From contig PFDV01000013.1 in the NCBI GenBank assembly GCA_002772745.1, positions 1-34,704 on the forward strand: 34,704 nucleotides of DNA. Reading direction: 5' to 3'. This DNA is from Candidatus Peregrinibacteria bacterium CG10_big_fil_rev_8_21_14_0_10_55_24. Lineage in GTDB: Bacteria; Patescibacteriota; Gracilibacteria; Peribacterales; Peribacteraceae. Numbering within the stretch: the first letter of the stretch is position 1; each line of letters begins with the position of its first letter. The translations under genes and the position numbers were made by a program. Positions 3,955 through 29,277 of this stretch are shown here, one piece after another. A model generated the notes under the pieces. The model was not told the origin of the DNA. It saw only the letters and a program-made list of their open reading frames with translations, and made no database searches.

Positions 3955-3968
3955 CATACTATAGTATG
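3955..3968. promoter_or_regulatory. Second 14-bp palindrome over the recombinase start codon
   Basis: CATACTATAGTATG is a perfect palindrome sharing 12 of 14 bases, including the core ACTATAGT, with the palindrome at 1206-1219. Its last three bases are the recombinase ATG itself. A repressor bound here would block transcription into the recombinase gene. In RNA the sequence could also hide the start codon in a hairpin. Confidence 0.6.
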
Positions 3969-5555
3969 CAGAAAGCACTTATCTACTGCCGGGTATCCTC
4001 AGACCGCCAAGTGAGGGAGGGGCATGGTATGCAGAGCCAAGAACAGCGTTGTAGAGGTTATGCAGCACAGCACGATTATGAAGTTGTGAAGGTCTTTAAA
4101 GATGAAGGTGTTTCAGGCAGTGTCATTGATCGTGAGGGCATGCAAAAGCTTCTCGCATATCTAGATACCCACCACAAGGAAGAGCACATTGTAATTATCG
4201 ATGATATAAAACGCCTCGCACGAGATATCACGGGACACTTCACACTTCGCAAATCTATTTCAGCTCGTAAAGCTAAACTTGAAAGCCCCTCTCATACATT
4301 TGGAGAAGGTGCAGAAGATATTTTTCTAGAGTCCATTCTTGCCGCTACTGCAGAGCTTGAGCGGAACCAGAACAAGCGTCAGGTACGCAACCGTATGCAG
4401 GCAAGGTTAGAATCTGGCTATTGGCCTTTCTACGCTCCTCCTGGCTACAAAAATGGGAAGCTTGATGATGGGAATAAAACGATCATCCCTCACGAACCTG
4501 AGGCAAGTATTATTCGTGAAGCTCTTGAGGGCTTCGCTAGCAATCGATTTGCAACACAGACAGACGTTCAGACATTTCTTGAATCAAAGGGATTCAGGCA
4601 TTGGGGATATGGCAAAATGACCTATCTAGATCAGGTAAAGCGGCTCCTAACACGAGATGTCTATTCTGGTTATATTTCTTACCCCAAATGGAACGTGACC
4701 CACCGCAAAGGGCATCATCAGGCTCTTATTTCTGGTGAAACATTTCAGAAGATTCAAGACAAGCTTGCTGATAAGCAAAAGATGCGAGCCCAGAATAATA
4801 TTCGTGATGATTTTCCACTGAGGAGCTTTGTATGCTGTTCAAAATGCAGCAATCCCTATACGGCTAGTTGGAGCAAGGGTAGGAATAAGAAATATCCCTT
4901 CTATCGTTGTACGACAGTTGGATGTGAGATGCACAACAAGAGTGTGAGAGCGGATCATATGCATGAGGCATTTGAGGGCTTACTCAAGAAACTTAAGCCA
5001 CGTCCGAACATTCTTAAAGTTGTACGCGCTGAACTACTCAAGCAGTGGAATGATCGTATGCTCAATGTAGAAGCTGTACGCAAAGAGAGGCAGAGGAAGC
5101 TAGATGTGATCCAAAAAGAAATTAATGACTACCTGTCAGTTCTTAAAGGATGCAGCAATTCGCTCGTGATTAAGAAGATTGAAGAGAATATCGAGGCCGC
5201 AGAAGCCAAGCGTATGCGCCTTGGTGAGAAGATCGAAATCAAGAATCAGAAGCACTACGACTTTGAAACTGCTTTGAACCGTGTCTTCGACTTCATCAAA
5301 AACCCCTATGCAATGTGGCAACAGGGTGATTTGTCGCAAAAGAGACTGGTTCTGCGGCTCGTGTTTGATAAGGAATTGACCTATGACCGCGACTCCAAAT
5401 TTGGAACCGCGAGTTTTTCGCTTCCTATAAACATTTGCTGCATACCTGATCTAGATAAATTAGAAGTGGTGGAGATGCCGGGAATTGAACCCGGGTCCAA
5501 CGTGTCGGAAGACTGTCCATACTGTTATGACCTCTTCTATTCTCCCAAACCCTAA
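3966..5555 (+). CDS. Large serine recombinase (integrase) reading into ssrA
   Basis: A 529-residue large serine recombinase. The catalytic resolvase domain covers about 1-145, with YCRVSSDRQ (nucleophile Ser11) and IDDIKRLARD (about 78-87). A recombinase DNA-binding domain covers about 155-275, followed by a zinc ribbon with Cys290/291/294 and Cys315/320, then a long coiled coil (about 340-430) as in phage-type serine integrases. It catalyses strand exchange between attachment sites, here probably integration and excision of the 1.2-5.5 kb element. Residues about 501-529 (VVEMPGIEPGS...) are encoded antisense to the 3' end of the tmRNA gene, so this tail comes from the host side of the junction and the pre-integration protein would have a different C-terminus. 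The start overlaps a palindromic operator. Confidence 0.92.
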   Translation: MQKALIYCRVSSDRQVREGHGMQSQEQRCRGYAAQHDYEVVKVFKDEGVSGSVIDREGMQKLLAYLDTHHKEEHIVIIDDIKRLARDITGHFTLRKSISARKAKLESPSHTFGEGAEDIFLESILAATAELERNQNKRQVRNRMQARLESGYWPFYAPPGYKNGKLDDGNKTIIPHEPEASIIREALEGFASNRFATQTDVQTFLESKGFRHWGYGKMTYLDQVKRLLTRDVYSGYISYPKWNVTHRKGHHQALISGETFQKIQDKLADKQKMRAQNNIRDDFPLRSFVCCSKCSNPYTASWSKGRNKKYPFYRCTTVGCEMHNKSVRADHMHEAFEGLLKKLKPRPNILKVVRAELLKQWNDRMLNVEAVRKERQRKLDVIQKEINDYLSVLKGCSNSLVIKKIEENIEAAEAKRMRLGEKIEIKNQKHYDFETALNRVFDFIKNPYAMWQQGDLSQKRLVLRLVFDKELTYDRDSKFGTASFSLPINICCIPDLDKLEVVEMPGIEPGSNVSEDCPYCYDLFYSPKP

Positions 5556-5883
5556 GGAAGAGGACGAAGAAGGGAATGGGAGGGATGACGCAAAAATACG
5601 GTATGTTCCCTGCGTCAGGAGAGATACCGCCTCGCAAATGACGCCGCATCCGCGTAGCGAGAATCGGCGGAGCGACGTGCTCCCGCTAGATGGGGAGCTT
5701 AGGCTGCGAACGCCATCGCCGGAGCGAAGGCAAACGAAGGACGTGCAAAGCGCGCCTTCATACTCGCAAACTTCTGCTTGTAGTTGGCAGATATTGGGTG
5801 CAACAGTGGGTACGGGAACCGTTGCCATCCCGAACAGAGACGAATACAACCGGAGAGTCACGCTGTCGAAACCTGTCATCCCC
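5467..5883 (-). ncRNA. ssrA: tmRNA (transfer-messenger RNA)
   Basis: On the minus strand the 417-nt RNA begins GGGGATGACAGGTTTCGACAG, the canonical tmRNA 5' end, and finishes with a T-arm (CCGGG TTCAATT CCCGG), CATCTCC, discriminator A and an encoded CCA. GGGGATG pairs with CATCTCC over seven base pairs with one G-U. The base of P2 is visible as CAGCGTG (5865-5859) pairing with CACGTTG (5504-5498). tmRNA with SmpB rescues stalled ribosomes and tags the nascent protein for proteolysis. The internal tag frame is at 5788-5699. The 3' end is overlapped antisense by the serine recombinase gene, and ssrA 3' ends are classic integration targets. No good promoter was identified immediately upstream. 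Confidence 0.92.
5699..5788 (-). other. tmRNA proteolysis-tag reading frame (29 codons plus stop)
   Basis: Resume codon GCC at 5788-5786 lies in the context ATATCTGCCAACTAC, similar to the usual context before tmRNA resume codons. The frame encodes ANYKQKFAS...APAMAFAA and ends at TAA (5701-5699). The final AFAA resembles known degradation tags, which end in LAA or FAA. At 29 residues it is much longer than the usual 8-15; long tags ending NFAFAA are known in some mycoplasmas. The resume codon is inferred from context. Confidence 0.75.
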
Positions 5884-7750: not shown

Positions 7751-9565
7751 ATGAAGCCACTTTCCACCGACGACATCCGGCAGCGCTACCTAAGTTTCTT
7801 CCAGGAGCAGGATCACGCCGTGATTCCGGGAGCACCTCTCATCCCGGAGAACGATCCCACCGTGCTCTTCACCACGGCGGGCATGCATCCGCTGGTTCCC
7901 TACCTTTTGGGAGAGCGCCATCCACAGGGCAAAAGGCTCACCGACGTCCAGCGCTGCGTGCGCACGCAGGACATTGATGAAGTGGGTGACGCAAGCCACC
8001 TCACCATGTTCGAGATGCTTGGGAACTGGAGCTTGGGCGACTACTTTAAGGAGGGAGCTATAACGATGAGTTTCCGATTCCTCACCGAGGTATTGGAGAT
8101 CCCCATGGACATGCTCGCGGTGACCTGTTTCCAAGGAGATAGTGATGCCCCAAAAGACGAGGAATCCGCTGCTATTTGGGAAAAGATGGGTATCCCCCGT
8201 GAGCGCATCGGGTTCCTTCCTAAGGCCAAAAACTGGTGGGGTCCCGCCGGGCAAACCGGCCCGTGCGGCCCCGATACGGAAATGTTCACCTGGGTGGGGG
8301 AAGGCAAGCCGCAGGGCAACCCTGCCACGCACGAAACTCAGTGGCTGGAAATCTGGAACGACGTCTTCATGCAGTACAACAAGACCGCCGAAGGAAATTT
8401 CGAACCGCTTGCACAGCAGAATGTGGATACGGGAATGGGACTCGAACGGACAGCCGCGGTGCTCCAGGGCGTCCCCACGGTGTACGAGACCGACCGCATG
8501 CGGCCGATCCTCGACCGCGTGCGAACGCTGGCCGATCAGCAGGATACGCGATCAGAGCGCATCATCGTGGATCACCTCAAGGCCGCTGTCTTCATCATCG
8601 CCGATGGCGTAGAGCCGGCGAACGTGGACCAGGGATACGTGTTGCGGCGCTTAATCCGCCGCGCGATCCGTGCAGCGCGCCAGTTGAGGATCGAGCACGA
8701 TGGCACGTTTGCGCCGACGATCGCCAACGCAGTCATCGAAGAGTACGGCCACATCTACGGACACCTCAAGACCAAACAGAAGGAGATCCGCGATGCCCTA
8801 AGCGGCGAGGAACAGAAGTTCGGCGCAACGCTCAAGGAAGGGCTCAAGCAGTTTGAGAAAGTCGTCGCAGAAACCGGGGCGCAGATCGACGGCGTGCATG
8901 CGTTCCACCTCTATGACACGTACGGCTTCCCGCTGGAGCTCACCAAGGAGATGGCAGCAGAAAAAGGTCTTTCGGTCGATGAGAAGGGATTTGCAAAAGC
9001 GTTTGCAGAGCACCAAAAGCTCTCTCGCGCGGGTGCTGAGAAGCGGTTTGCCGGAGGGCTCGCCGATCACTCATCGGAAACCGCTAAGCTCCACACAGCA
9101 ACCCACCTCCTGAGTGCGGCACTGCGCAAGATCTTGGGTAACCATGTGTATCAGAAAGGCAGCAACATCACGGCTGAACGTCTGCGCTTTGACTTCTGTC
9201 ATCCTGAAAAGATGACCCCTGAGCAGCTCAAGGAGGTGGAGCGGCTCGTGAACCAGGCGATCGAAGCCGATCTCCCCATCTCCTTTCATGTGACCTCGGT
9301 TGAGGAAGCGAAGGAGGAGGGAGCCATGGGCGTGTTTGATGAGCGGTACGGAGACGAAGTGAAGGTGTACACGGTGGGCAATGAGAAGACGGGAACGGTG
9401 TTCAGCAAGGAGATTTGCGGCGGCCCGCATGTGGCACGCACGGGAATGCTGGGGCACTTCACGCTGGTGAAAGAGGAGAGCTCCTCGGCCGGAGTACGCC
9501 GCATCAAGGCGACTGTCGCAGGAGGGCCGGAGCAGATCGAGATTGCTCATGAAAGGGAGGCCTAA
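7751..9565 (+). CDS. alaS: Alanyl-tRNA synthetase, compact form
   Basis: Charges tRNA-Ala with alanine and hydrolyses mischarged products. The N-terminus shows the class II AlaRS catalytic core (FFQEQDHAVIPGAPLIP, DVQRCVRTQDID, HLTMFEMLGNWSLGDYFKE, NVDTGMGLERTAAVLQG). The tRNA-recognition region follows (VLRRLIRRAIRAAR), then the editing domain with zinc ligands HTATH near 448 and CGGPH near 556 and the late motif SSSAGVRRIKA. The protein is 604 residues, while typical bacterial AlaRS has about 870. The C-terminal C-Ala domain is absent and the spacer before the editing domain is shortened, so the editing site is retained in a reduced scaffold. ATG 7751 gives a full N-terminus. A large inverted repeat follows the gene. 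Confidence 0.97.
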   Translation: MKPLSTDDIRQRYLSFFQEQDHAVIPGAPLIPENDPTVLFTTAGMHPLVPYLLGERHPQGKRLTDVQRCVRTQDIDEVGDASHLTMFEMLGNWSLGDYFKEGAITMSFRFLTEVLEIPMDMLAVTCFQGDSDAPKDEESAAIWEKMGIPRERIGFLPKAKNWWGPAGQTGPCGPDTEMFTWVGEGKPQGNPATHETQWLEIWNDVFMQYNKTAEGNFEPLAQQNVDTGMGLERTAAVLQGVPTVYETDRMRPILDRVRTLADQQDTRSERIIVDHLKAAVFIIADGVEPANVDQGYVLRRLIRRAIRAARQLRIEHDGTFAPTIANAVIEEYGHIYGHLKTKQKEIRDALSGEEQKFGATLKEGLKQFEKVVAETGAQIDGVHAFHLYDTYGFPLELTKEMAAEKGLSVDEKGFAKAFAEHQKLSRAGAEKRFAGGLADHSSETAKLHTATHLLSAALRKILGNHVYQKGSNITAERLRFDFCHPEKMTPEQLKEVERLVNQAIEADLPISFHVTSVEEAKEEGAMGVFDERYGDEVKVYTVGNEKTGTVFSKEICGGPHVARTGMLGHFTLVKEESSSAGVRRIKATVAGGPEQIEIAHEREA

Positions 9566-15398: not shown

Positions 15399-16895
15399 TT
15401 ACCGAGCCGCTTTCTTTCGACGAGATTCTCCGCGTTTGGGCGACTTCGTCATGGCTCCGTTTTTCCCCTTCGCCTGATCTTTCCAAATCGTATTGATATT
15501 GATGCGGTAGAGATTGCTGTAACGCTCCAGCTCGCTGGGATCCGCCATCTTGAGCACATCAAGCTCCGGCGCAAACATCTCGCTAAAACGGTCTCGGCGG
15601 CGAATTTGTGTGACGCTGCCATCCGGGCGGACCAGCACCACCGGTGCGCGACGGATGGTATTAAAGTTGTTTGCGAGCACCTGGGCATACGCACCCACAT
15701 CCATAGCAGCCAGGATATCGCCCTCTGCCAGTTTGGGCATTTCAATATCTTGCGTAATGAGATCCCAACAGTCACAGGTGTTTCCGCCTACGGTGACCTT
15801 GTGCACGCGCGGCGCGTACATACGAGATGCGGGAAGAATGTCGTAACAGACGTCTTTCTGAACCAATGCGTCGGGAATGAAGTTATACGTAGACCCATCG
15901 GCGATGATCATGCGCTTGCGGCCGAATATCTGCTTACTGGACACCACTTGCATAAGACCGATTCCCGCATTCAACACAATGGCTTTCCCCGGCTCAAAGA
16001 TGAGTTTGATGGGCATCGTCACTCCATGGCGTTCCAGCAGCCGTTGGAAGTACGAGGGGAAATCTTTCATTTTCTCAATCGGGAAAGCTTCCTGATCCCC
16101 GATGGCCGCGGGGAATCCCCCGCCCAAAGAGAGCGTTTTTATCGGTATGTGTCGGTCCTGGCAGAAACGAACGATCTTCACCAGTGCGCGTGCCGTTGCC
16201 TTCAATACCCTCACGTTCTGAATGTATCCCCCCATAAAATGGAAACCACGGAAATCTACGAATGGCGTACGGGCAGCCACCTCGATGGCATGGTGGATCT
16301 GCTGGATAGGGATGCCGTACTTGTTGCCCTTCGTCGAATAATTGCCCACCTGCAACATGGGATTCACCCGCAGTACCGTGCGCACTTGTGTCCGCAATTT
16401 CTTGGCTGCCAACCCTATGCGGTAAAGATCTTCGATGCTGTCCGCTGTAATGCTCTGCACTCCCATTTTGACGGCGAAGAGAAGATCATTATCCGTCTTG
16501 TAGAGATTTGTGAACGAAAGCTGCCGGGGCTTGAGGTCCGCAAGGAGTCCCAGAATGAGTTCGCCGACACTGGCGCAGTCCAGTTCAAAACCCTCCTCCT
16601 GAGCCATACGAAGAATTGCCAAGTTGCTGTTGCACTTCACCGCGTACTGGAGTTTTACATCTTCCCCGAACGTTTTTTTAAAACGGCGAAATCGATCACG
16701 AATCTCGCTTTCCACCATTACGTACACCGGCGTGCCGTACTTCTGAACAATCCGATCCACCGGCACTCCCTCCACGGTCATCATTCCCCGAATATCCACA
16801 TCAAGAAACTTCTTCCATCGCTCCCGTATGTACCGGTGAGCTCTCATGCGTCGCCGTGCGTGGTGAGAGGAGCTTCCTCCCGCAGGTACGTTCAT
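15399..16895 (-). CDS. Fold-III PLP-dependent decarboxylase, probable arginine decarboxylase
   Basis: A 498-residue alanine-racemase-fold amino-acid decarboxylase (DapDC/ODC/ADC superfamily). The PLP lysine is in KLQYAVKCNSNLAIL. The barrel carries FRGFHFMGGYI, the glycine-rich phosphate-binding segment LSLGGGFP, and EPGKAIVLNAG. The C-terminal domain has the substrate-binding GNTCDCWDLI and the MDVGAYAQ motif. Motifs alone do not fix the substrate among arginine, ornithine, diaminopimelate and carboxynorspermidine. The neighbouring agmatine deiminase and carbamoylputrescine amidase make arginine decarboxylase (agmatine formation) most likely. The basic C-terminal tail (KSPKRGESRRKKAAR) is unusual. 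It lies 105 bp downstream of the DHS-like gene in the same direction but has its own -10 box, TACAAT at 16915-16910. Confidence 0.82.
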   Translation of the reverse strand: MNVPAGGSSSHHARRRMRAHRYIRERWKKFLDVDIRGMMTVEGVPVDRIVQKYGTPVYVMVESEIRDRFRRFKKTFGEDVKLQYAVKCNSNLAILRMAQEEGFELDCASVGELILGLLADLKPRQLSFTNLYKTDNDLLFAVKMGVQSITADSIEDLYRIGLAAKKLRTQVRTVLRVNPMLQVGNYSTKGNKYGIPIQQIHHAIEVAARTPFVDFRGFHFMGGYIQNVRVLKATARALVKIVRFCQDRHIPIKTLSLGGGFPAAIGDQEAFPIEKMKDFPSYFQRLLERHGVTMPIKLIFEPGKAIVLNAGIGLMQVVSSKQIFGRKRMIIADGSTYNFIPDALVQKDVCYDILPASRMYAPRVHKVTVGGNTCDCWDLITQDIEMPKLAEGDILAAMDVGAYAQVLANNFNTIRRAPVVLVRPDGSVTQIRRRDRFSEMFAPELDVLKMADPSELERYSNLYRININTIWKDQAKGKNGAMTKSPKRGESRRKKAAR

Positions 16896-16909
16896 TGCTT
16901 AACTACGCA

Positions 16910-16915
16910 ATTGTA
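16910..16915 (-). promoter_or_regulatory. -10 box before the decarboxylase gene
   Basis: TACAAT on the minus strand, 14 nt before ATG 16895, in the gap after the DHS-like gene. The -35 is weak. Confidence 0.4.
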
Positions 16916-17000
16916 AATAAACAGCGCAGGAGTATAGAACTCCAAACCCACGACGCAAGAAAAAATTTTCCGCAGGATGCGGGTGGGGAGCCGGGTGCCA

Positions 17001-18101
17001 TCAAAGATCCAACAGTACAGCTGCAATCCATGGGAATGCGACCGTCACGTCGCTCTGGATAATCTGGTAGTAGCTCTTCGTGGAAAGTTTGTCCCAGGTG
17101 ATCTTTTCCTTGCCGCCAGCACCCGAATAGGAGCCGTACGACATCGGCGAAGAACCGATTTCAATGAATCCGGCCCAATCGCGCACCTTGGGGTAACGCA
17201 AATCATGCCGGAGGGAGGGGACGACGCAGATGGGGAAATCCGCGGAAATGCCGCCGCCCAACTGCAAGAAGGCAACCGGATGATCTTGGGAAACCTTGCC
17301 ATACCACTCATAGAGGAAGGTGAAGTACTCCAAACCGCCCTTCAGAATCTTTGGATCCAGAACAGGACCGCCATTCTTGCGGTACTTGCCGTCATACGTG
17401 TAGCTGGCAAAGATATTGCCCATGGTGGAATCCTCAAACCCCGGAATCACGATGGGAATGTCCTTTTTATACGCCGCATACGTCCAACTGTCGCTCTCGT
17501 TGGCGAGCGGATCGGGTTTGATGAGTTTTTCGGCGTACAGTCTCCGGAAGTACTCATGGGGAAAGAACCTCTCCCCTTTCTTCTGGGCATGTTCCCACAT
17601 ACGCAGCAGATGCGGTTCCATGATGCGTACGCTCTCGTCTTCCGGCAGAAAAGTATCCGTGATGCGTCGCAGCCCCGCATCGCGGAGTTCCGCCTCCTGC
17701 TCCGGCGTCAGTTCCGTGTAACGGGGAATGTACGCGTAGTGGGAATGCGCGACGTAACGGTAGTAGGATTCCTCGTGATTGGCTGCCGTTGCAGAGACCA
17801 GATGGACTTTGCCCTGACGAATGAGCTCGGCCAGCAGAACACCGATCTGGAATGAACTCAATGCCCCGGCAATGGTCACCACAAGCTTGCCGCCATTCTC
17901 TATATGCTGCTTCAGCCAGAGAGCAGCTTGGAGTGTGGCCCCGCCATTACAGTGCTTCAGTGTGGCTTCGGCAAAATCGCTCACAGGATGCTTGCTCTTT
18001 TTGACAAACGGAAGAATGGATCCCGTGCGCCTGAGTTGCCGGGATTCGGGGACAATGTGCTTACGGAGCGACGGAGAAAGCTGGTCGAACTTCTTTTTCA
18101 T
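17001..18101 (-). CDS. Deoxyhypusine synthase-like protein (possible homospermidine-type synthase)
   Basis: A 366-residue member of the deoxyhypusine synthase (DHS) superfamily, an NAD-dependent aminobutyl transferase acting on spermidine or putrescine. Family features are a TIAGALSSFQIGVLLAELIRQGKV nucleotide-binding start, VIPGFEDSTMGN, FLQLGGGISADFPICVVPSL and SYSGAGGKEKITWDKL. In eukaryotic DHS the catalytic lysine follows GGG (GGGVAKHH); here that place reads GGGISADFP, so the enzyme-imine lysine is missing at the usual position. Bacteria lack eIF5A, so a polyamine substrate such as putrescine is more likely. The start is taken at 18101 because CATATT ends 6 nt upstream; the frame is open to 18389 but would run under the divergent amidase gene. 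Function within the polyamine locus is inferred. Confidence 0.82.
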   Translation of the reverse strand: MKKKFDQLSPSLRKHIVPESRQLRRTGSILPFVKKSKHPVSDFAEATLKHCNGGATLQAALWLKQHIENGGKLVVTIAGALSSFQIGVLLAELIRQGKVHLVSATAANHEESYYRYVAHSHYAYIPRYTELTPEQEAELRDAGLRRITDTFLPEDESVRIMEPHLLRMWEHAQKKGERFFPHEYFRRLYAEKLIKPDPLANESDSWTYAAYKKDIPIVIPGFEDSTMGNIFASYTYDGKYRKNGGPVLDPKILKGGLEYFTFLYEWYGKVSQDHPVAFLQLGGGISADFPICVVPSLRHDLRYPKVRDWAGFIEIGSSPMSYGSYSGAGGKEKITWDKLSTKSYYQIIQSDVTVAFPWIAAVLLDL

Positions 18102-18107
18102 GCGGCA

Positions 18108-18113
18108 AATATG
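18108..18113 (-). promoter_or_regulatory. -10-like box of the DHS-like gene
   Basis: CATATT on the minus strand, 6 nt before ATG 18101, in the 93-bp divergent gap shared with aguB. Moderate match, no clear -35. Confidence 0.4.
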
Positions 18114-18179
18114 GAAAGAGACCGAAAAGCAGACTTCAATACTCGTATATTCCGCTCGAAAATTCAACAGCATTTGCCG

Positions 18180-18185
18180 TATGAT
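18180..18185 (+). promoter_or_regulatory. -10-like box of aguB
   Basis: TATGAT, 9 nt before ATG 18195. It gives the same short spacing as other genes in the window. The -35 is unclear. Confidence 0.4.
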
Positions 18186-18194
18186 TCCTCCGTG

Positions 18195-19070
18195 ATGGGA
18201 AAGCGGGTGATCATCGGCCTTGTCCAGATGGCCTGCGACCATGATGTCGCAGCGAATCTCGCAAGAGCGCAGCAGATGATTGCGGAGGCAGCGGACAAAG
18301 GAGCAAAAATCGTGGCGTTGCCGGAATTGTTTGCAAGCCCGTATTTCTGCCAGAACCCAAAAAACAACGACGCGTTCGCCTACGCACAACGGATTCCCGG
18401 TGCCATTACGAACCGACTCGCCGAAATCGCAAAGAAGTACAGCATTGTTCTCGTGGGAGGATCACTCTTCGAGAAAACCGCTGAGGGTTCGTACTACAAC
18501 ACCGCAACGGTGTTCGGCCCCGATGGGGCGATGCTTGGAACGTATCGCAAAACACATATTCCGCACGACCCTGCTTTCTACGAGCAGGATTATTTTGCCC
18601 CGGGGGACACAGGCATTCGTGTGTTTGAAACACCCTACGGCACCATCGGCGTCCTGATTTGCTACGATCAATGGTTCCCGGAAGCAGCACGCATCGCAAC
18701 GCTGCAGGGCGCAGAGATCATCTTCTATCCCACGGCTATCGCAACGTCTCCTGATATCGCCCCTGTCGATGCATCCATTCCGGAAGATTGGGAGACGATG
18801 TGGCGCGCGGCACAGGTCGGCCATGCAGCGGTCAACAACGTCTACGTAGCCGCCATCAACCGTGTTGGAACAGAGGGCAATATGCGTTTTTGGGGCGGCT
18901 CATTCGTTGCGGATCCCAACGCACGGCTCCTGATCAAAGCCGACGACACTCCGCAGATCGTCCTTGCCGAAGTTGACCTTTCCTATCCAAAGAAGATGCA
19001 ACAATCGTGGCGATTCCTTATGGAGAGGAGACCCGAAACGTACGGGGAAATTACCCAAAAGCGCACGTAG
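18195..19070 (+). CDS. aguB: N-carbamoylputrescine amidase
   Basis: A 291-residue nitrilase-superfamily (CN hydrolase) enzyme that converts N-carbamoylputrescine to putrescine, CO2 and ammonia. The catalytic triad is visible as Glu44 (ALPELFASPYFC), Lys119 (YRKTHIPHDPAFYEQDYF) and Cys156 (VLICYDQWFPEAAR). YFAPGDTG and WETMWRAAQVGHAAVNNVYVAAINRVG are characteristic of the AguB branch. The length matches the family. The frame is open upstream through the DHS-like gene; ATG 18195 gives the standard N-terminus (MGKRVIIGLVQM). Agmatine deiminase follows 164 bp downstream on the same strand, supplying its substrate. Confidence 0.95.
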   Translation: MGKRVIIGLVQMACDHDVAANLARAQQMIAEAADKGAKIVALPELFASPYFCQNPKNNDAFAYAQRIPGAITNRLAEIAKKYSIVLVGGSLFEKTAEGSYYNTATVFGPDGAMLGTYRKTHIPHDPAFYEQDYFAPGDTGIRVFETPYGTIGVLICYDQWFPEAARIATLQGAEIIFYPTAIATSPDIAPVDASIPEDWETMWRAAQVGHAAVNNVYVAAINRVGTEGNMRFWGGSFVADPNARLLIKADDTPQIVLAEVDLSYPKKMQQSWRFLMERRPETYGEITQKRT

Positions 19071-19178
19071 TCGCCTCCTTGTACAGCTCCGCCTTCAGGT
19101 CGGAGACATCTTCCGTGAAGGCAGGTGCAACACTCAACGGCCCTGCTGGGATAAGTGATGCAATGACAGATCCCCGCC

Positions 19179-19198
19179 GCAGAGTTTGCACGCTCTGC
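19179..19198. other. Hairpin in the aguB-aguA gap
   Basis: GCAGAG (19179-19184) pairs with CTCTGC (19193-19198) over an 8-nt loop. No T-run follows. The rest of 19071-19234 shows no gene. A similar CTCTGC/GCAGAG stem forms the terminator after aguA. Confidence 0.3.
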
Positions 19199-19234
19199 AC
19201 AAGACCTCTTGATCATTATCAACGAGGCGGTAGC

Positions 19235-20317
19235 ATGCCGCCGATGTCGTCCCTCTCTCCGTTGATACCTGGTTCCCCCGCCGCCGAAGGTTTCCGCATG
19301 CCGGCAGAGTGGGAACCACATGAAGCTACTTGGCTTTCGTGGCCGCATAACCATGTCACATGGGGAGATCACCTCGAAGGTGCCGAGGCTACGTATGTCA
19401 AAATCATTTCCGCTCTCACGCCGCACGAAACCGTGCACGTGCTGGTTGCAAATTCGGCGGTACACCAGCGCGCTCAACAACAACTGAGCAGCATACGCAA
19501 TGACCAACATCTTGTGTTCCATGACATCGATGCGGGAGACACTTGGTTCCGTGATTACGGTCCCATTTTCCTCACCCGAGAGAAACCTCGGCACGAAATC
19601 GCATGGACGAAATGGATATATAACGCTTATGGGAATACGTATGAGGATCTGCTCATTGGGAATGACGCACCTCACAAGATGCCATTGGATGCATGGAAGC
19701 GGTTTGATTCCGGAATGGTTCTTGAGGGCGGTTCCATTGATGTGAACGGCACGGGAACGCTGATCACCACGGAGAGCTGCCTGCTTTCGCCGGACAGAAA
19801 CCCCGGCATGACCAAAGCCCAGATCGAACACACGTTGAAAGATTTCCTTGGCGTGACAAATATCCTTTGGCTCTCCGCTGGCATCCAAGGCGATGATACA
19901 ACGGGCCATGTGGATGACATCACGCGCTTTGTGAATCAAAACACGGTTGTTACCGTAACGGAAAAGGACCCTCAGGATGCCAACTACGTCCCTCTTGCAG
20001 AAAATCTGAAGCGTTTAAAAAGCATGAGCGATGAAAGAGGTGAACCCATCACCGTGATTGAAATGCCCATGCCGAGACCCTTCTTCGTGAAGGGACGACG
20101 CATGGCGGCAAGCTACGCGAATTTCTACATAGCCAATGGAATCGTACTTGTGCCAACGTACAACCAAGAATCCGACGAGATTGCTCTGGCAACCCTGCGC
20201 AAGTGTTTCCCGGATCGCAATGCGATGGGCATTGATTGCCGAGAACTCATTTGGGGATTTGGAGCAATACACTGTGTAACGCAACAGCAACCTCAGGGTA
20301 TAGCTTTGGGAACGTGA
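19235..20317 (+). CDS. aguA: Agmatine deiminase
   Basis: A 360-residue member of the agmatine deiminase/peptidylarginine deiminase (PAD_porph) family, hydrolysing agmatine to N-carbamoylputrescine and ammonia. Family motifs are PAEWEPHEATWLSWPHN, DTWFRDYGPIFLT, VLEGGSIDVNGTGTLITTESCLLSPDRNPG, GDDTTGHVDDITRFV, YANFYIANGIVLVPTYN, and GFGAIHCVTQQQP, whose Cys is the catalytic nucleophile. The frame is open from 19007, but family homology begins after 19235, where GAGGCGG gives a plausible ribosome-binding site 4 nt upstream; ATG 19244 is an alternative. With aguB and the decarboxylase it completes the arginine-agmatine-putrescine route. A rho-independent terminator follows. Confidence 0.94.
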   Translation: MPPMSSLSPLIPGSPAAEGFRMPAEWEPHEATWLSWPHNHVTWGDHLEGAEATYVKIISALTPHETVHVLVANSAVHQRAQQQLSSIRNDQHLVFHDIDAGDTWFRDYGPIFLTREKPRHEIAWTKWIYNAYGNTYEDLLIGNDAPHKMPLDAWKRFDSGMVLEGGSIDVNGTGTLITTESCLLSPDRNPGMTKAQIEHTLKDFLGVTNILWLSAGIQGDDTTGHVDDITRFVNQNTVVTVTEKDPQDANYVPLAENLKRLKSMSDERGEPITVIEMPMPRPFFVKGRRMAASYANFYIANGIVLVPTYNQESDEIALATLRKCFPDRNAMGIDCRELIWGFGAIHCVTQQQPQGIALGT

Positions 20318-20517: not shown

Positions 20518-20590
20518 TCGCGGATGCCTCTCCATTGCACCGTACGTGGCTTGCCACGAGTCGGTTTCTCAGGGCTCTGCCCTGCTCCTC

Positions 20591-20625
20591 AAACACTTCG
20601 GTGTTTCCCCCGCAAGGGGGTTTTT
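20591..20625 (+). terminator. Tandem tetraloop hairpins with T-run
   Basis: The AAACAC-TTCG-GTGTTT stem is immediately followed by the CCCCC-GCAA-GGGGG stem and TTTTTGTTG, a strong rho-independent terminator that separates the small RNA from the lipoprotein gene. Confidence 0.8.
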
Positions 20626-20633
20626 GTTGTGCG

Positions 20634-20650
20634 AGAGGTACAGTACCTCT
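20634..20650. promoter_or_regulatory. 17-bp palindrome upstream of the lipoprotein gene
   Basis: AGAGGTAC and GTACCTCT flank a single A, 19 bp before ATG 20670. The symmetry suggests a dimeric regulator site, since a 1-nt loop does not favour an RNA hairpin. Confidence 0.4.
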
Positions 20651-20669
20651 ATTCCTATTCCCTTCAAAT

Positions 20670-21242
20670 ATGCGCATATCCTGCCTCCTCCTCATTGCAC
20701 TCCTCATTGCAAGTTGTCAGCCCGTATCTCCTGTAGCGGAGGATCCGATTGACCATGCGCTTTCCGCATGGGAATCGTCCGTACGCGATAGCGCACCCGA
20801 TTTCGACCGCACGACAATGACGCTCGTAAACACACGCGCCATCGATGCGATGCCACGGGGAACCGTCACTCCTGGCTCTCCGCTTGAGGAAGTGACGCAA
20901 CGGGCATTTGCCTCATCAGTCTCACCCGATGGGACGCAGACACTCGTTCTCCTTGCCGGTGAGGAACCCGACAGCGAAGTTCTCCTCATCGCGCAGAACG
21001 GAGAAGTTGAGCGCGTGCTCTACTGCGGGACCCCGTGCCGCTGGACGCACGTCGCGTGGGTAGATGACCATCGATTTGTCGTTGCAGGGTTGGAGGAGGC
21101 ATTCACCGAGACCGGGGAATCCCCCTGCACAGAGGGCACTCCTCTCTGTGTACAACCGGTGTACTACCTCTTCTCCCGTGGAGACGAGACTGTTGAGCGC
21201 TTTGCAGGAACACCGGTTTCGCTGCAGGAGCTACCGCGGTAG
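20670..21242 (+). CDS. Predicted lipoprotein of unknown function
   Basis: A 190-residue protein with a lipoprotein signal peptide, MRISCLLLIALLIASCQ; the lipobox LIASC places the lipidated cysteine at residue 16. The mature part has strand-rich segments such as RAFASSVSPDGTQTLVLLAGEE, EVLLIAQNGEVERVLYCG and WTHVAWVDDHRFVVAGLEEAF, a pattern like WD40/TolB-type propeller blades. Two cysteine pairs (YCGTPC and SPCTEGTPLC) may form disulfides. The frame is open from 20535, but the signal peptide fixes the start at 20670. No specific family recognised. Confidence 0.78.
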   Translation: MRISCLLLIALLIASCQPVSPVAEDPIDHALSAWESSVRDSAPDFDRTTMTLVNTRAIDAMPRGTVTPGSPLEEVTQRAFASSVSPDGTQTLVLLAGEEPDSEVLLIAQNGEVERVLYCGTPCRWTHVAWVDDHRFVVAGLEEAFTETGESPCTEGTPLCVQPVYYLFSRGDETVERFAGTPVSLQELPR

Positions 21243-23816: not shown

Positions 23817-25061
23817 GTGGCACAGAAGCCCATCCGTGAAACACAGGCAAAAGCACTCATCCGCGACCAATGGCCGCAGGAGTACGCAGCAGGCAAACCG
23901 GCAATCCGCTTTGCGGAAATCGACGGAAGCACCGACCTTCTCGCTCTCCCCCACAATCACCCGTGGCTCACGGAGGGGAAGGTGGTCGCCAAGGTTGATG
24001 AGCTCTTCGGCAAGCGCGGCAAGTTGGGATATGTACAGGTGGCCGAAACCTGGGAAGAAACGAAGATCTGGATGGAGGGCCTGCGAAAAACCACCGCGAC
24101 GGTCGCCGGGCGCTGTGGTGTGCTCGAACACTTCATCGTGGAGCCCTTCGTTGAGCATGAGGAGGAGCTCTACCTCGCTTTCACGTGCGAACGCACCGAG
24201 GACGTCATCCTCTTCTCGCGGAAGGGCGGCATGGATGTGGAGGAGCAGGGTGCGTCCATCGTGCGCATCCCCGTTCCTCTAGGTACTGAGCCTGAACTTT
24301 CGCAACTCCAAGGGCTGGACACGAAACTCACGGCGACGATCCGCGGACTCTTCTCCCTCTTTCGTTCGCTCGATCTCCCCTCCGTGGAGTTCAATCCCAT
24401 CGCCGTCAATGCGCGTGGCGTGTACCTGCTCGACTGCGTCGCCCGCGTCGACACGTGCGCCGCCTTCCGTCAGCGATCCACATGGGGGTTATTGAGCATC
24501 CCGGAGGGTTTTGGCAGCACGCGTACTCCCGAGGAGCTCTTCATCTCCGATCTCGACGCAAAGAGCGGCAGCTCACTGAAGTTTGTGTTGTTGCATCCTC
24601 AAGGCCGCATCTGGACGATGGTTGCGGGGGGAGGAGCAAGCATCATCTACGCCGATGCGATTACGGCGCAGGTCGACCCCAAGGAGCTGGCCAATTACGG
24701 AGAGTGGTCAGGAAATCCGAGTACCGATGAAATGGAGGCGTACACCGGCAAGATTCTTTCGCTCATCGAGAAGAACGACCGAGAGCAAGCACTCATCATC
24801 GGCGGCGGGATTGCGAATTTCACCGACGTGGCACGCACGTTCGCCGGCGTGATCGCCGCGCTTGAGGACCATGCACCCAAACTCAAGAACCTGAAGATCT
24901 TCGTGCGTCGTGCCGGTCCCAATGATCGCCGGGGCTTGAAGGCGCTGCAAGAGGCGTGCAATCGCCTGAGAATTTCCTGCGTTACGCATGGAGCGGAGCT
25001 CCCCATGACCGCCGTCGTCTCTGAGGCGCTCTCCGCTCTCCACCTGACTCCTGACTCCTGA
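23817..25061 (+). CDS. aclB: ATP-citrate lyase small subunit (ATP-grasp and citrate-binding)
   Basis: A 414-residue subunit homologous to the N-terminal part of animal ACLY and to AclB of Chlorobium. The ATP-grasp region contains HPWLTEGKVVAKVDELFGKRGKLG, EHFIVEPFVEHEEELYLAF and PSVEFNPIAV, with YLLDCVARVD. The citrate-binding Rossmann region begins at LDAKSGSSLKFVLLHPQGRIWTMVAGGGASIIYAD and continues with ELANYGEWSGNPS, ALIIGGGIANFTDVARTF and IFVRRAGPNDRRGL. With AclA the complex converts citrate, CoA and ATP to acetyl-CoA, oxaloacetate, ADP and phosphate. The start is GTG (GTG GCA CAG), as no earlier ATG fits. The gene ends 8 bp before aclA, so the two are cotranscribed. Length and motif order are as in complete AclB. 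Confidence 0.93.
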   Translation: MAQKPIRETQAKALIRDQWPQEYAAGKPAIRFAEIDGSTDLLALPHNHPWLTEGKVVAKVDELFGKRGKLGYVQVAETWEETKIWMEGLRKTTATVAGRCGVLEHFIVEPFVEHEEELYLAFTCERTEDVILFSRKGGMDVEEQGASIVRIPVPLGTEPELSQLQGLDTKLTATIRGLFSLFRSLDLPSVEFNPIAVNARGVYLLDCVARVDTCAAFRQRSTWGLLSIPEGFGSTRTPEELFISDLDAKSGSSLKFVLLHPQGRIWTMVAGGGASIIYADAITAQVDPKELANYGEWSGNPSTDEMEAYTGKILSLIEKNDREQALIIGGGIANFTDVARTFAGVIAALEDHAPKLKNLKIFVRRAGPNDRRGLKALQEACNRLRISCVTHGAELPMTAVVSEALSALHLTPDS

Positions 25062-25069
25062 CCACTCCC

Positions 25070-26857
25070 GTGTCCCTCCTCTTCTCCCCCACAACTCTGG
25101 CTATCGTCTACGGACGCAAAATGGTCTCCGTGCAGCGGATGCTGGACTTCGATGTCCTTGCAGGGAGGAAGCCGAGCGTTGCGTGCATCGTGGACCCTGT
25201 GAGTAGCGCACCTCAGAAAACGTTCTTCGGTGCCAAGGAGTTCCTTCTGCCGGTGGTGCGCACGTTGAAGGAAGCACGCGAGCGCTTTCCTCAGGCCGAC
25301 GTGCTCATCAACTTCGCTTCGCAACGCTCCGCCGGTGCCGTAGTGCTTGAGGGAATCGCACGGGAAGTGCGCGTGATCGCCACCATCGCCGAGGGCGTGC
25401 CGGAGAGCGATACGCGGCAATGGATCGTGGAAGCGCAGAGGAGCGGAACCACCCTGATCGGACCTGCGACCGTCGGCGCGGTGACTGCCGGAGCGTTCCG
25501 TGTCGGCGATACTGGCGGGAGCACGGAGCACCTGATCGCCAGCAAGCTCCACCGTGCAGGGTGCGTGGGATACGTGGGGAAGTCCGGCGGGATGAGCAAC
25601 GAACTCTACCGCATGATCGCAGAGCACTCTTCGGGCATCGCGGAAGGCGTCGCCATCGGCGGCGACCGCAACCCGGGCAGCACGCTCCTCTCGCATATTC
25701 TGCGCTACCAGGAGGAGCCTTCGATTGCGATGATCGTCATGACCTCGGAAATCGGCGGACGCGAGGAGGAGGACATCGCCAAAGCTCTCAAGGAGAAACG
25801 GATCACGAAACCGCTCATTGCATGGGTAGCGGGAACCTCTGCAGAGCACTTCCCCAAGGACGTGCAGTTCGGTCACGCAGGCGCATGGGCGGCAAGCAGT
25901 GCCGAGACTGCGCAGGCCAAGAACCAGCTCTTAAAGAAAGCAGGCGCCCTGGTGCCGCAGCGGTTTGAAGGATTGCCCGAAATCATCGCAAAAACCTATG
26001 AAGCGCTCAAAGCGAGCGGTAGAGTGCAGGACCCCATGGAACCCATCCTCCCTGAACTCCCTTCCGATCGCCGCAGTGCGCATGTGCAGTGCACAATCAG
26101 CGACGACCGGGGAGCAGAGGCGACCTACGGCTCCACGCCTATCTCGCAGTTCATCCACGATGGCTCACTGGTGAAGACCCTTGCCCGCCTGTGGTGGAAA
26201 ACAGACCTCACGCAGGAGGCGCTCACGTACCTGGAGATGATCCTCGTCGCCGTTGCCGACCACGGACCGGCTGTCGCCGGAGCGCACAATGCGATTGTCG
26301 CGGCGAGCGCGGACAAGGATACGGTGAGTGCGCTCTGTTCGGGGTTGCTCACCATCGGCCCGCGCTTCGGCGGCGCGGTGGACGCTGCCGCCCGCGCGTT
26401 CTTCGACGCCCATGCGCGCGGTCTTTCGCCCCAAGAATTTGTGGACGCAATGAAGGAGCAGGGCGAACGTATCCCGGGGATCGGTCACAAAATCCGCTCG
26501 GTGCACAACCCCGATACCCGTGTTAGCACTCTCCTCGCCTTTGCGCAGGATCACTTTGGTGATCTCCCCCTCACGACCTACGCCCTGCAGGTGGAGCGCA
26601 TCACAACGACGAAGAAGCCCAATCTCATCCTCAATGTAGACGGGCTCATCGGTGTGTCGCTCGTGGATATCCTCCTTCCGCAATTACCCAAGGATGTCGC
26701 CGATGGCTTCTTTGAAGCCGGATACTTAAACGGCCTCTTCGCGCTGGGACGCAGCGTGGGGATCCTGGGGCACATCTTCGACCAAAAGCGCCTCAAGTCC
26801 CCTCTCTACCGCCATCCGCAGGAAGACATTCTGTATGGAGAAGGGACACTCGACTAA
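25070..26857 (+). CDS. aclA: ATP-citrate lyase large subunit (CoA ligase plus citryl-CoA lyase)
   Basis: A 595-residue subunit collinear with the C-terminal part of ACLY and with AclA of Chlorobium. Residues 1-320 are the succinyl-CoA-synthetase-alpha-like half: DVLINFASQRSA, IGPATVGAVTAGAF, GYVGKSGGMSNELY, GVAIGGDRNPGS, and the phosphorylated histidine His269 in FGHAGAWA. Residues 350-595 are the citrate-synthase-like lyase: VADHGPAVAGAHNA (His398), TIGPRFGGAVDAAA, IPGIGHKIRSVHNPD (His473), and KPNLILNVDGLIGVSLVD (Asp524), matching ACLY His900, His975 and Asp1026. All these catalytic residues are present, so the enzyme should be active and is not a citrate synthase or succinyl-CoA synthetase. 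Start GTG 25070. Its end overlaps the following acidic gene. Confidence 0.95.
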   Translation: MSLLFSPTTLAIVYGRKMVSVQRMLDFDVLAGRKPSVACIVDPVSSAPQKTFFGAKEFLLPVVRTLKEARERFPQADVLINFASQRSAGAVVLEGIAREVRVIATIAEGVPESDTRQWIVEAQRSGTTLIGPATVGAVTAGAFRVGDTGGSTEHLIASKLHRAGCVGYVGKSGGMSNELYRMIAEHSSGIAEGVAIGGDRNPGSTLLSHILRYQEEPSIAMIVMTSEIGGREEEDIAKALKEKRITKPLIAWVAGTSAEHFPKDVQFGHAGAWAASSAETAQAKNQLLKKAGALVPQRFEGLPEIIAKTYEALKASGRVQDPMEPILPELPSDRRSAHVQCTISDDRGAEATYGSTPISQFIHDGSLVKTLARLWWKTDLTQEALTYLEMILVAVADHGPAVAGAHNAIVAASADKDTVSALCSGLLTIGPRFGGAVDAAARAFFDAHARGLSPQEFVDAMKEQGERIPGIGHKIRSVHNPDTRVSTLLAFAQDHFGDLPLTTYALQVERITTTKKPNLILNVDGLIGVSLVDILLPQLPKDVADGFFEAGYLNGLFALGRSVGILGHIFDQKRLKSPLYRHPQEDILYGEGTLD

Positions 26858-27587
26858 CTACGCATCTATGGAAGACATTGACGACGATTGCGAAGGCTCT
26901 GTACCTCTGCGCTGGCGTATCGCTCTCTCGCAGGAGGAAGCCCGGCAATGGGAAGGCAAGACCGATCTCACTGCGGACGACGTCATGGAATCCCTGGTGG
27001 AAGAAACGCTCCACACGATGCACATCGCCAGCGCGGGGATTTTCATCGAGCCTCTTGATGATGGCATTCCAGAAGACCCCAGTGAGGCCGATGGAGACGA
27101 GGTCTACGTACTGGAAATCGCCGATATTCCCCGGAACCTGCAGGAGGACGTACGAAGGAATATCGCCGTCCTCTTCGCCGATACGCGCATCACGGAGCTT
27201 GGTGAGGAGCGCGTCACGCCCTTCGCCGAGACGCTCTACTACTCCCTCCGTCTCCCTCGTGATCAGGCCGCCAATGGCGATGTCGATGACATTGCCGGAG
27301 AGCTCCGAGACATGATCCGCAGTGCGCTGCATGCAGGCAGCATTGATGTTCTTGTGGATGCAGAGCCCGGAACGAAGCGGAGAGAATTCTTCCTCAAGAT
27401 ATCCGGCGTACCACCAGACGACATCGCCTCCGTACAGGAAACAATTTCCTCGCTCTTCGACGAATATACTCATAAGCTTCGCGAAATTGATGAGGAAGAT
27501 TGGTGCGATGCCACAGGAGAAGCGGCCAACGACGAGGAGGGCGAGGGATGGAAGCCGGATTCCTGGTCTTTAGACAACGAAACTTGA
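26835..27587 (+). CDS. Acidic hypothetical protein following aclBA
   Basis: Up to 250 residues, strongly acidic (DDDCEGS, PEDPSEADGDEVYVLEIADIP, EEDWCD, NDEEGEGWKPDSW). Alternating strand/helix segments may repeat twice (residues about 50-130 and 140-220), each ending in an LF(A/D)-containing helix. No family is recognised. ATG 26835 overlaps aclA by 23 bp with AGGA 10 nt upstream; ATG 26868 is an alternative that avoids the overlap. It is probably in the acl operon, and a role with ATP-citrate lyase is possible but only positional. It overlaps the convergent ogt gene by 18 bp. Confidence 0.65.
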   Translation: MEKGHSTNYASMEDIDDDCEGSVPLRWRIALSQEEARQWEGKTDLTADDVMESLVEETLHTMHIASAGIFIEPLDDGIPEDPSEADGDEVYVLEIADIPRNLQEDVRRNIAVLFADTRITELGEERVTPFAETLYYSLRLPRDQAANGDVDDIAGELRDMIRSALHAGSIDVLVDAEPGTKRREFFLKISGVPPDDIASVQETISSLFDEYTHKLREIDEEDWCDATGEAANDEEGEGWKPDSWSLDNET

Positions 27588-29064: not shown

Positions 29065-29277
29065 ATGTTCAACCTCTTCCGCTACGGCATCCATTTCGGC
29101 CCGCAACAGCAACCTCGGCCACAGTTTAGCACCGGGTTGCTGCTCAACGGGCTCCTGTGTGTGCTCTTCGGGCTCGCGATCATCGCCAACCCCGACCTCG
29201 TGGCGTACTTCGTCGCGTTCGCGCTGCTCTTTCTGGGCGCGTCGCTCCTCACCGCGTGGTGGAGAACGCGGCAGTGA
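29065..29277 (+). CDS. Small two-helix membrane protein (DUF3096-like)
   Basis: A 70-residue protein with two closely spaced hydrophobic helices (LLLNGLLCVLFGLAIIA and LVAYFVAFALLFLGASLLTAW) separated by NPD, followed by WWRTRQ. This is the layout of DUF3096-type small membrane proteins of unknown function. The N-terminus (MFNLFRYGIHFGPQQQPRP) is polar and presumably cytoplasmic. The call rests on topology, as no functional motif exists. Confidence 0.7.
   Translation: MFNLFRYGIHFGPQQQPRPQFSTGLLLNGLLCVLFGLAIIANPDLVAYFVAFALLFLGASLLTAWWRTRQ

Follow-up and report, generated by a model that had tools for sequence, protein, structure and literature searches.

A predicted stand-alone two-subunit ATP-citrate lyase of the Methanosaeta/eukaryote type in Candidatus Peribacteraceae

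Introduction

An ATP-citrate lyase (ACL) proposed to work without a TCA cycle in a CPR bacterium was described in 2019 from a Gracilibacterium by Sieber et al. That ACL has two subunits, is archaeal-like and "rarely detected in CPR", and was proposed to be fed by external citrate (PMC6851277). ACL is also on record from groundwater Gracilibacteria (PMC11452946), and in 2025 aclAB was reported to be enriched in Saccharimonadia (PMC12577380). For Peribacter riflensis, the published reconstruction contains no TCA cycle, derives oxaloacetate via PEP carboxylase with "scant opportunities" for its use, finds no clear gene forming acetate from acetyl-CoA, and predicts a mevalonate pathway (PMC4736985). 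Among the papers searched, none was found that names ACL in genomes of Peribacteria or Peregrinibacteria.

Stand-alone ACL in CPR is therefore already published, and the Peribacteraceae locus analyzed here is an added case. The window, by which is meant the whole analyzed stretch of 34,704 nucleotides, corresponds to contig C13 of its genome. That genome belongs to Candidatus Peribacteraceae (CPR/Patescibacteria), has a size of 1.29 Mb and is 98.8% complete.

The aclBA genes and their products

The two genes are as follows:

23817-25061, forward strand: aclB, GTG start, 414 aa; ATP-grasp and citrate-binding subunit, called from Pfam, the Methanosaeta concilii match and conserved residues.
25070-26857, forward strand: aclA, GTG start, 595 aa; CoA-ligase and citrate-synthase-like lyase domains, called from Pfam, structures, residues and tree.

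Both frames are open and collinear, separated by the 8-bp gap (25062-25069) that an earlier note on this DNA had described, and the start of aclB agrees with that of its relatives (MAQKPIRE). Around the operon, no promoter or terminator signals above chance were found. AclB matches Citrate_bind (PF16114, 1e-60) and the ATP-citrate synthase ATP-grasp domain (PF24948, 5e-51), both far above cut-off, and AclA carries Ligase_CoA (PF00549, 4e-20) and Citrate_synt (PF00285, 2e-23) in one chain. Against the M. concilii ACL structure, AclA aligns over residues 3-589 (E 9e-191, 639 bits) and AclB over residues 1-405 (E 5e-92, 312 bits); the corresponding matches to human ACLY reach 606 bits (E 6e-181) and 282 bits. 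Among solved structures, whole ACLs match best, with succinyl-CoA synthetase (1e-30) and citryl-CoA lyase (2e-11) trailing far behind. Since these full-length matches stand so far above the paralogue scores, chance resemblance is excluded.

For the residue comparison, functional roles of human ACLY positions were taken from ACLY structures. In AclA, His269 lies in QFGHAGA, His398 in DHGPAV, His473 in GIGHKI and Asp524 in NVDG, exactly where the earlier note had placed the phosphohistidine and the lyase residues, and none of the four varies among Peribacteraceae, M. concilii and human. The ATP-grasp and citrate motifs that it had reported likewise hold up: in the AclB alignment, the positions equivalent to human Lys58, Arg66, Glu118, Asn203, Asp216, Ser308, Gly309, Asn346, Thr348 and Arg379 are kept in seven Peribacteraceae. 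The sole change in the citrate site is human Ser343 to Gly, a Gly also present in three other prokaryotic sequences compared, and two non-catalytic positions that were checked show conservative changes only. On domains, structure matches and residues, aclBA is confirmed to encode a complete, intact two-subunit ACL (EC 2.3.3.8) with every checked catalytic residue present.

Host genome and integrity of the locus

Relatives of AclA with 65-74% identity lie on contigs named Candidatus Peribacteraceae, Peribacteria, Peribacter and Peregrinibacteria, and within the window's own family the aclBA pair occurs in 9 of 74 genomes and 4 of 40 genera; together, these place the host in Peribacteraceae. Two further genes connect the window with genus g339 by microsynteny:

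20535-21242, forward strand: lipoprotein-like gene, upstream of aclBA.
29065-29277, forward strand: membrane-protein-like ORF of 70 aa, downstream of aclA.

A lipoprotein-like gene occupies the upstream side of aclBA in two g339 genomes as well (L126/L040 and L128/L039), and the relative at L126:1416-2432 carries a Gmad2 domain. Counterparts of the 70-aa ORF, 39-61% identical, lie downstream of aclA in four g339 genomes (L126, L127, L128, L132). Third-position GC of aclB (0.73) and aclA (0.74) matches the host, as judged against alaS (0.72). The pair is conserved and heritable in these bacteria.

The earlier note had named two ways in which its call could fail, and neither holds. The possibility that aclBA entered the assembly from another organism, through mis-binning or a chimeric contig, might draw on the patchy distribution of the pair in the family and on a near-relative contig (L037, JAIPIN010000012.1) that is titled Kiritimatiellales at NCBI. 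However, that contig equals contig C25 of genome G432 in size (27,506 bases) and AclA match, and G432 is placed in Peribacteraceae, so that the label looks wrong. With the pair present in independent assemblies of several Peribacteraceae, one clade per subunit, flanking genes common to relatives and GC in line with the host, mis-binning is contradicted and very unlikely. A misannotated pair of succinyl-CoA synthetase and citrate synthase paralogues, to which the domains are indeed homologous, is scarcely credible. None of the NCBIfam models for succinyl-CoA synthetase, citryl-CoA lyase and citrate synthase comes anywhere near its cut-off, and whole ACL structures align end to end, which contradicts the paralogue reading; AclA and AclB do not score like paralogues, a comparison made on scores, the AclA and AclB trees having held ACLs only.

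Phylogeny and origin

In the AclA tree (73 sequences), the nine Peribacteraceae sequences form one clade (support 100/100) on a long stem of 0.97, nested with M. concilii, human, Micrarchaeota, Thermoplasmata, Bathyarchaeota and scattered bacteria. The AclB tree recovers the same clade with 100% support and a stem of 0.94, and the phylogeny that the earlier note had proposed as a check yields one Peribacteraceae clade per subunit. The predicted enzyme is of the Methanosaeta/eukaryote type and not of the Chlorobium type. Wherever both genes were recovered in the family, their order is B-A. Lateral transfer probably brought aclBA into an ancestor of some Peribacteraceae, after which the pair was inherited with its locus.

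CPR ACLs of the Methanosaeta/eukaryote type are scattered in the tree, with members in Peribacteraceae, Gracilibacteria, Dojkabacteria, one Moraniibacteriota and the genome G039. A single origin for all of them is disfavored (AU p 0.013), in a test that includes the long branch L030. For the genes of Peribacteraceae and Gracilibacteria taken by themselves, the AU test does not reject a shared origin (p 0.35).

Metabolic setting

Each absence given here rests on one family search. In the host genome (G000), a citrate synthase domain was found in AclA and nowhere else, and there was no match for malate dehydrogenase (PF02866, the malate/lactate dehydrogenase C-terminal domain), aconitase (PF00330) or the citrate carrier families CitMHS (PF03600), DASS (PF00939) and 2HCT (PF03390). 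HMG-CoA synthase, considered as a consumer of acetyl-CoA, was sought in 16 Peribacteraceae genomes, the host included, and none of them gave a match reaching the family cut-off. For most families, search controls were positive in 12-14 of the 14 genomes (DASS, 9; HMG-CoA synthase, 4; 2HCT, 2). CitMHS matches in the relatives G382 and G395 were rejected as clear citrate carriers, being ArsB/NhaD/MamN-like and below all NCBIfam cut-offs.

With no match for TCA-cycle neighbors or for the three carrier families, the ACL stands alone, and no reductive TCA cycle is seen in the host genome, where neither aconitase nor malate dehydrogenase accompanies it. That this CPR bacterium carries an authentic ACL with no cycle partners found for it, as the earlier note had supposed, is supported. 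The accompanying suggestion that the enzyme uses scavenged citrate is, if anything, weakened because none of the three carrier families was found.

The alpha subunit of a 2-oxoacid:ferredoxin oxidoreductase is present in the host genome, and no beta subunit was seen in its partly annotated 18-kb neighborhood. POR_N is missing from 3 of the 9 ACL-bearing genomes (G381, G382, G405) versus 4 of the 65 without ACL (Fisher p 0.035, counted by genome; the three cluster in the gene tree and may represent one event). This pattern, which is that expected if ACL can supply acetyl-CoA, is a hint only.

Reaction and direction

The catalytic steps can be assigned because they follow from the ACL family. 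AclB would bind citrate and ATP, His269 of AclA would carry the phosphate, citryl-phosphate would be converted to citryl-CoA, and the citrate-synthase-like domain (His398, His473, Asp524) would split citryl-CoA into acetyl-CoA and oxaloacetate. Enzyme activity and a usual direction of cleavage are both predictions from sequence, and the direction itself cannot be read from the genes because the reaction is reversible. Cleavage is favored because relatives without POR_N need acetyl-CoA and because the same role has been proposed in Gracilibacteria. The account that we prefer, with somewhat better than even confidence, is of a laterally acquired Methanosaeta/eukaryote-type ACL that, without a TCA cycle, usually cleaves citrate taken from other cells. 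The resulting acetyl-CoA would be a second source beside 2-oxoacid:ferredoxin oxidoreductase, or in some relatives a source instead of it, and the oxaloacetate could be used, for example, for aspartate.

The same enzyme might instead be mainly synthetic, converting acetyl-CoA, oxaloacetate, ADP and Pi to citrate, ATP and CoA, with excretion of citrate and a gain of ATP by substrate-level phosphorylation. A reversible ACL making ATP in the direction of citrate synthesis is reported for Desulfobacter postgatei (PMC12743299), a direction that the citing text of PMC12137691 attributes to Moller et al. (1987). The oxidoreductase alpha subunit in the genome, the little-used oxaloacetate and missing acetate-forming gene of P. 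riflensis (PMC4736985), and the lack of an importer among CitMHS, DASS and 2HCT are also consistent with synthesis. However, no citrate exporter was identified either, and G381, G382 and G405 retain ACL but lack POR_N; in these relatives, acetyl-CoA for synthesis would have to come from elsewhere. Synthesis as the main direction is considered unlikely, though it deserves weight, and cleavage of outside citrate is the likelier direction. A bolder form of the synthetic idea, in which a CPR ACL running backwards is an ATP-making terminal step that exports citrate to neighbors, a fermentation replacing acetate formation, seems a long shot. It is similarly improbable that aclBA has drifted to another acyl-CoA substrate, such as a citryl-like or methylcitrate-like acid: the long stems in both trees and the lack of a known citrate source in the cell would fit such drift, but the positions aligned to human Arg379, Asn346, Thr348, Ser308 and Gly309 are kept in all Peribacteraceae compared.

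Neighboring genes in the window

Directly after aclA lies one further gene that had been suggested as a partner of the enzyme:

26835-27587, forward strand: acidic orphan ORF, as far as the evidence goes no part of the enzyme; more likely start 26868.

It has no Pfam or NCBIfam match, and homologues are absent from all other ACL-bearing Peribacteraceae genomes; the one marginal match (E 8e-4) is in an ACL-negative genome of the family. The co-occurrence check gives no support to a partnership. The reported overlap with aclA exists with the start at 26835 and disappears with the in-frame ATG at 26868, 10 bp past the aclA stop.

A separate observation on this CPR genome is a polyamine group (15402-20317) that covers the route from arginine to putrescine almost completely:

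15402-16895, reverse strand: Orn/Arg decarboxylase.
17004-18389, reverse strand: deoxyhypusine-synthase family.
17904-19070, forward strand: N-carbamoylputrescine amidase, best stretch from residue 104.
19007-20317, forward strand: agmatine deiminase.

A relative of the deoxyhypusine-synthase-family ORF (37% identity) lies near aclBA in genome G431, at L126:12792-13844. Elsewhere in the window, the alanyl-tRNA synthetase ORF (7751-9565) is only 604 aa long, and the C-terminal domain that longer AlaRS have may be missing from it; the tmRNA gene (5467-5883) has an unusually long predicted tag, ANYKQKFASMKARFARPSFAFAPAMAFAA. A large serine recombinase (3966-5555; Resolvase, Recombinase and zinc ribbon) has a GC of 0.449, below the rest, and is possibly a mobile element.

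Distribution in the phylum

In a sample of 380 genomes from the phylum, the citrate-binding domain PF16114 has matches in 24 (~6%), and in 23 of these above cut-off. The surprise that the earlier note expressed at finding ACL in a CPR genome is smaller than claimed, given this frequency and the reports from Gracilibacteria in 2019 and Saccharimonadia in 2025. A second, more distant ACL type occurs in other CPR families (L019-L026). In some CPR genomes (e.g., L033:8144-12085), the CoA-ligase and citryl-lyase parts are apparently on separate ORFs, which looks like the arrangement of citryl-CoA synthetase and citryl-CoA lyase. In G039, from another CPR family, two genes lie just upstream of aclBA, one for a protein with an aconitase domain and one resembling isocitrate dehydrogenase (L017:1249-8566); this is an ACL with TCA neighbors in CPR, the dehydrogenase call being an ORF reading by eye.

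With stand-alone ACL in CPR extended to Peribacteraceae, genomes that carry the enzyme can be compared with a defined set of relatives that do not. This makes two questions testable: what an enzyme known from carbon fixation and from lipid synthesis in eukaryotes does where the citric-acid cycle is lacking, and whether ACL can take the place of pyruvate:ferredoxin oxidoreductase in supplying acetyl-CoA.

Comparison with known systems

Like the Peribacteraceae locus, the ACL of Gracilibacterium BD02T64 is a two-subunit, archaeal-type enzyme in a CPR host without a TCA cycle, for which external citrate was proposed (PMC6851277); in contrast, citrate transporters are predicted there, whereas three carrier families were not found in the Peribacteraceae host. 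The Gracilibacteria genes of L111 and L115 are open with code 25 and are not sister to Peribacteraceae in the tree. The heteromeric ACL of Methanosaeta (Methanothrix) concilii (PDB 6hxi, 6znw) shares the two subunits, domains and catalytic residues and aligns over the full length, while Peribacteraceae AclA has a shortened linker ahead of its lyase domain and stands on a long stem of its own. Human ACLY (PDB 6hxh, 6poe) has the same residue set and matches the AclA part strongly, but it is one fused chain and has Ser343 where Peribacteraceae have Gly. The Chlorobium-type ACL (PDB 6hxj, from Chlorobium limicola), the other two-subunit ACL in the PDB, shares the reaction and the two-subunit plan, yet scores only 341 bits against AclA and 161 against AclB, compared with 639 and 312 for the M. 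concilii subunits. Citryl-CoA synthetase and citryl-CoA lyase (PDB 6hxq, 6hxp) accomplish the same net reaction with two enzymes, whereas in Peribacteraceae a single chain holds both the lyase and the CoA-ligase part, which is the ACL arrangement.
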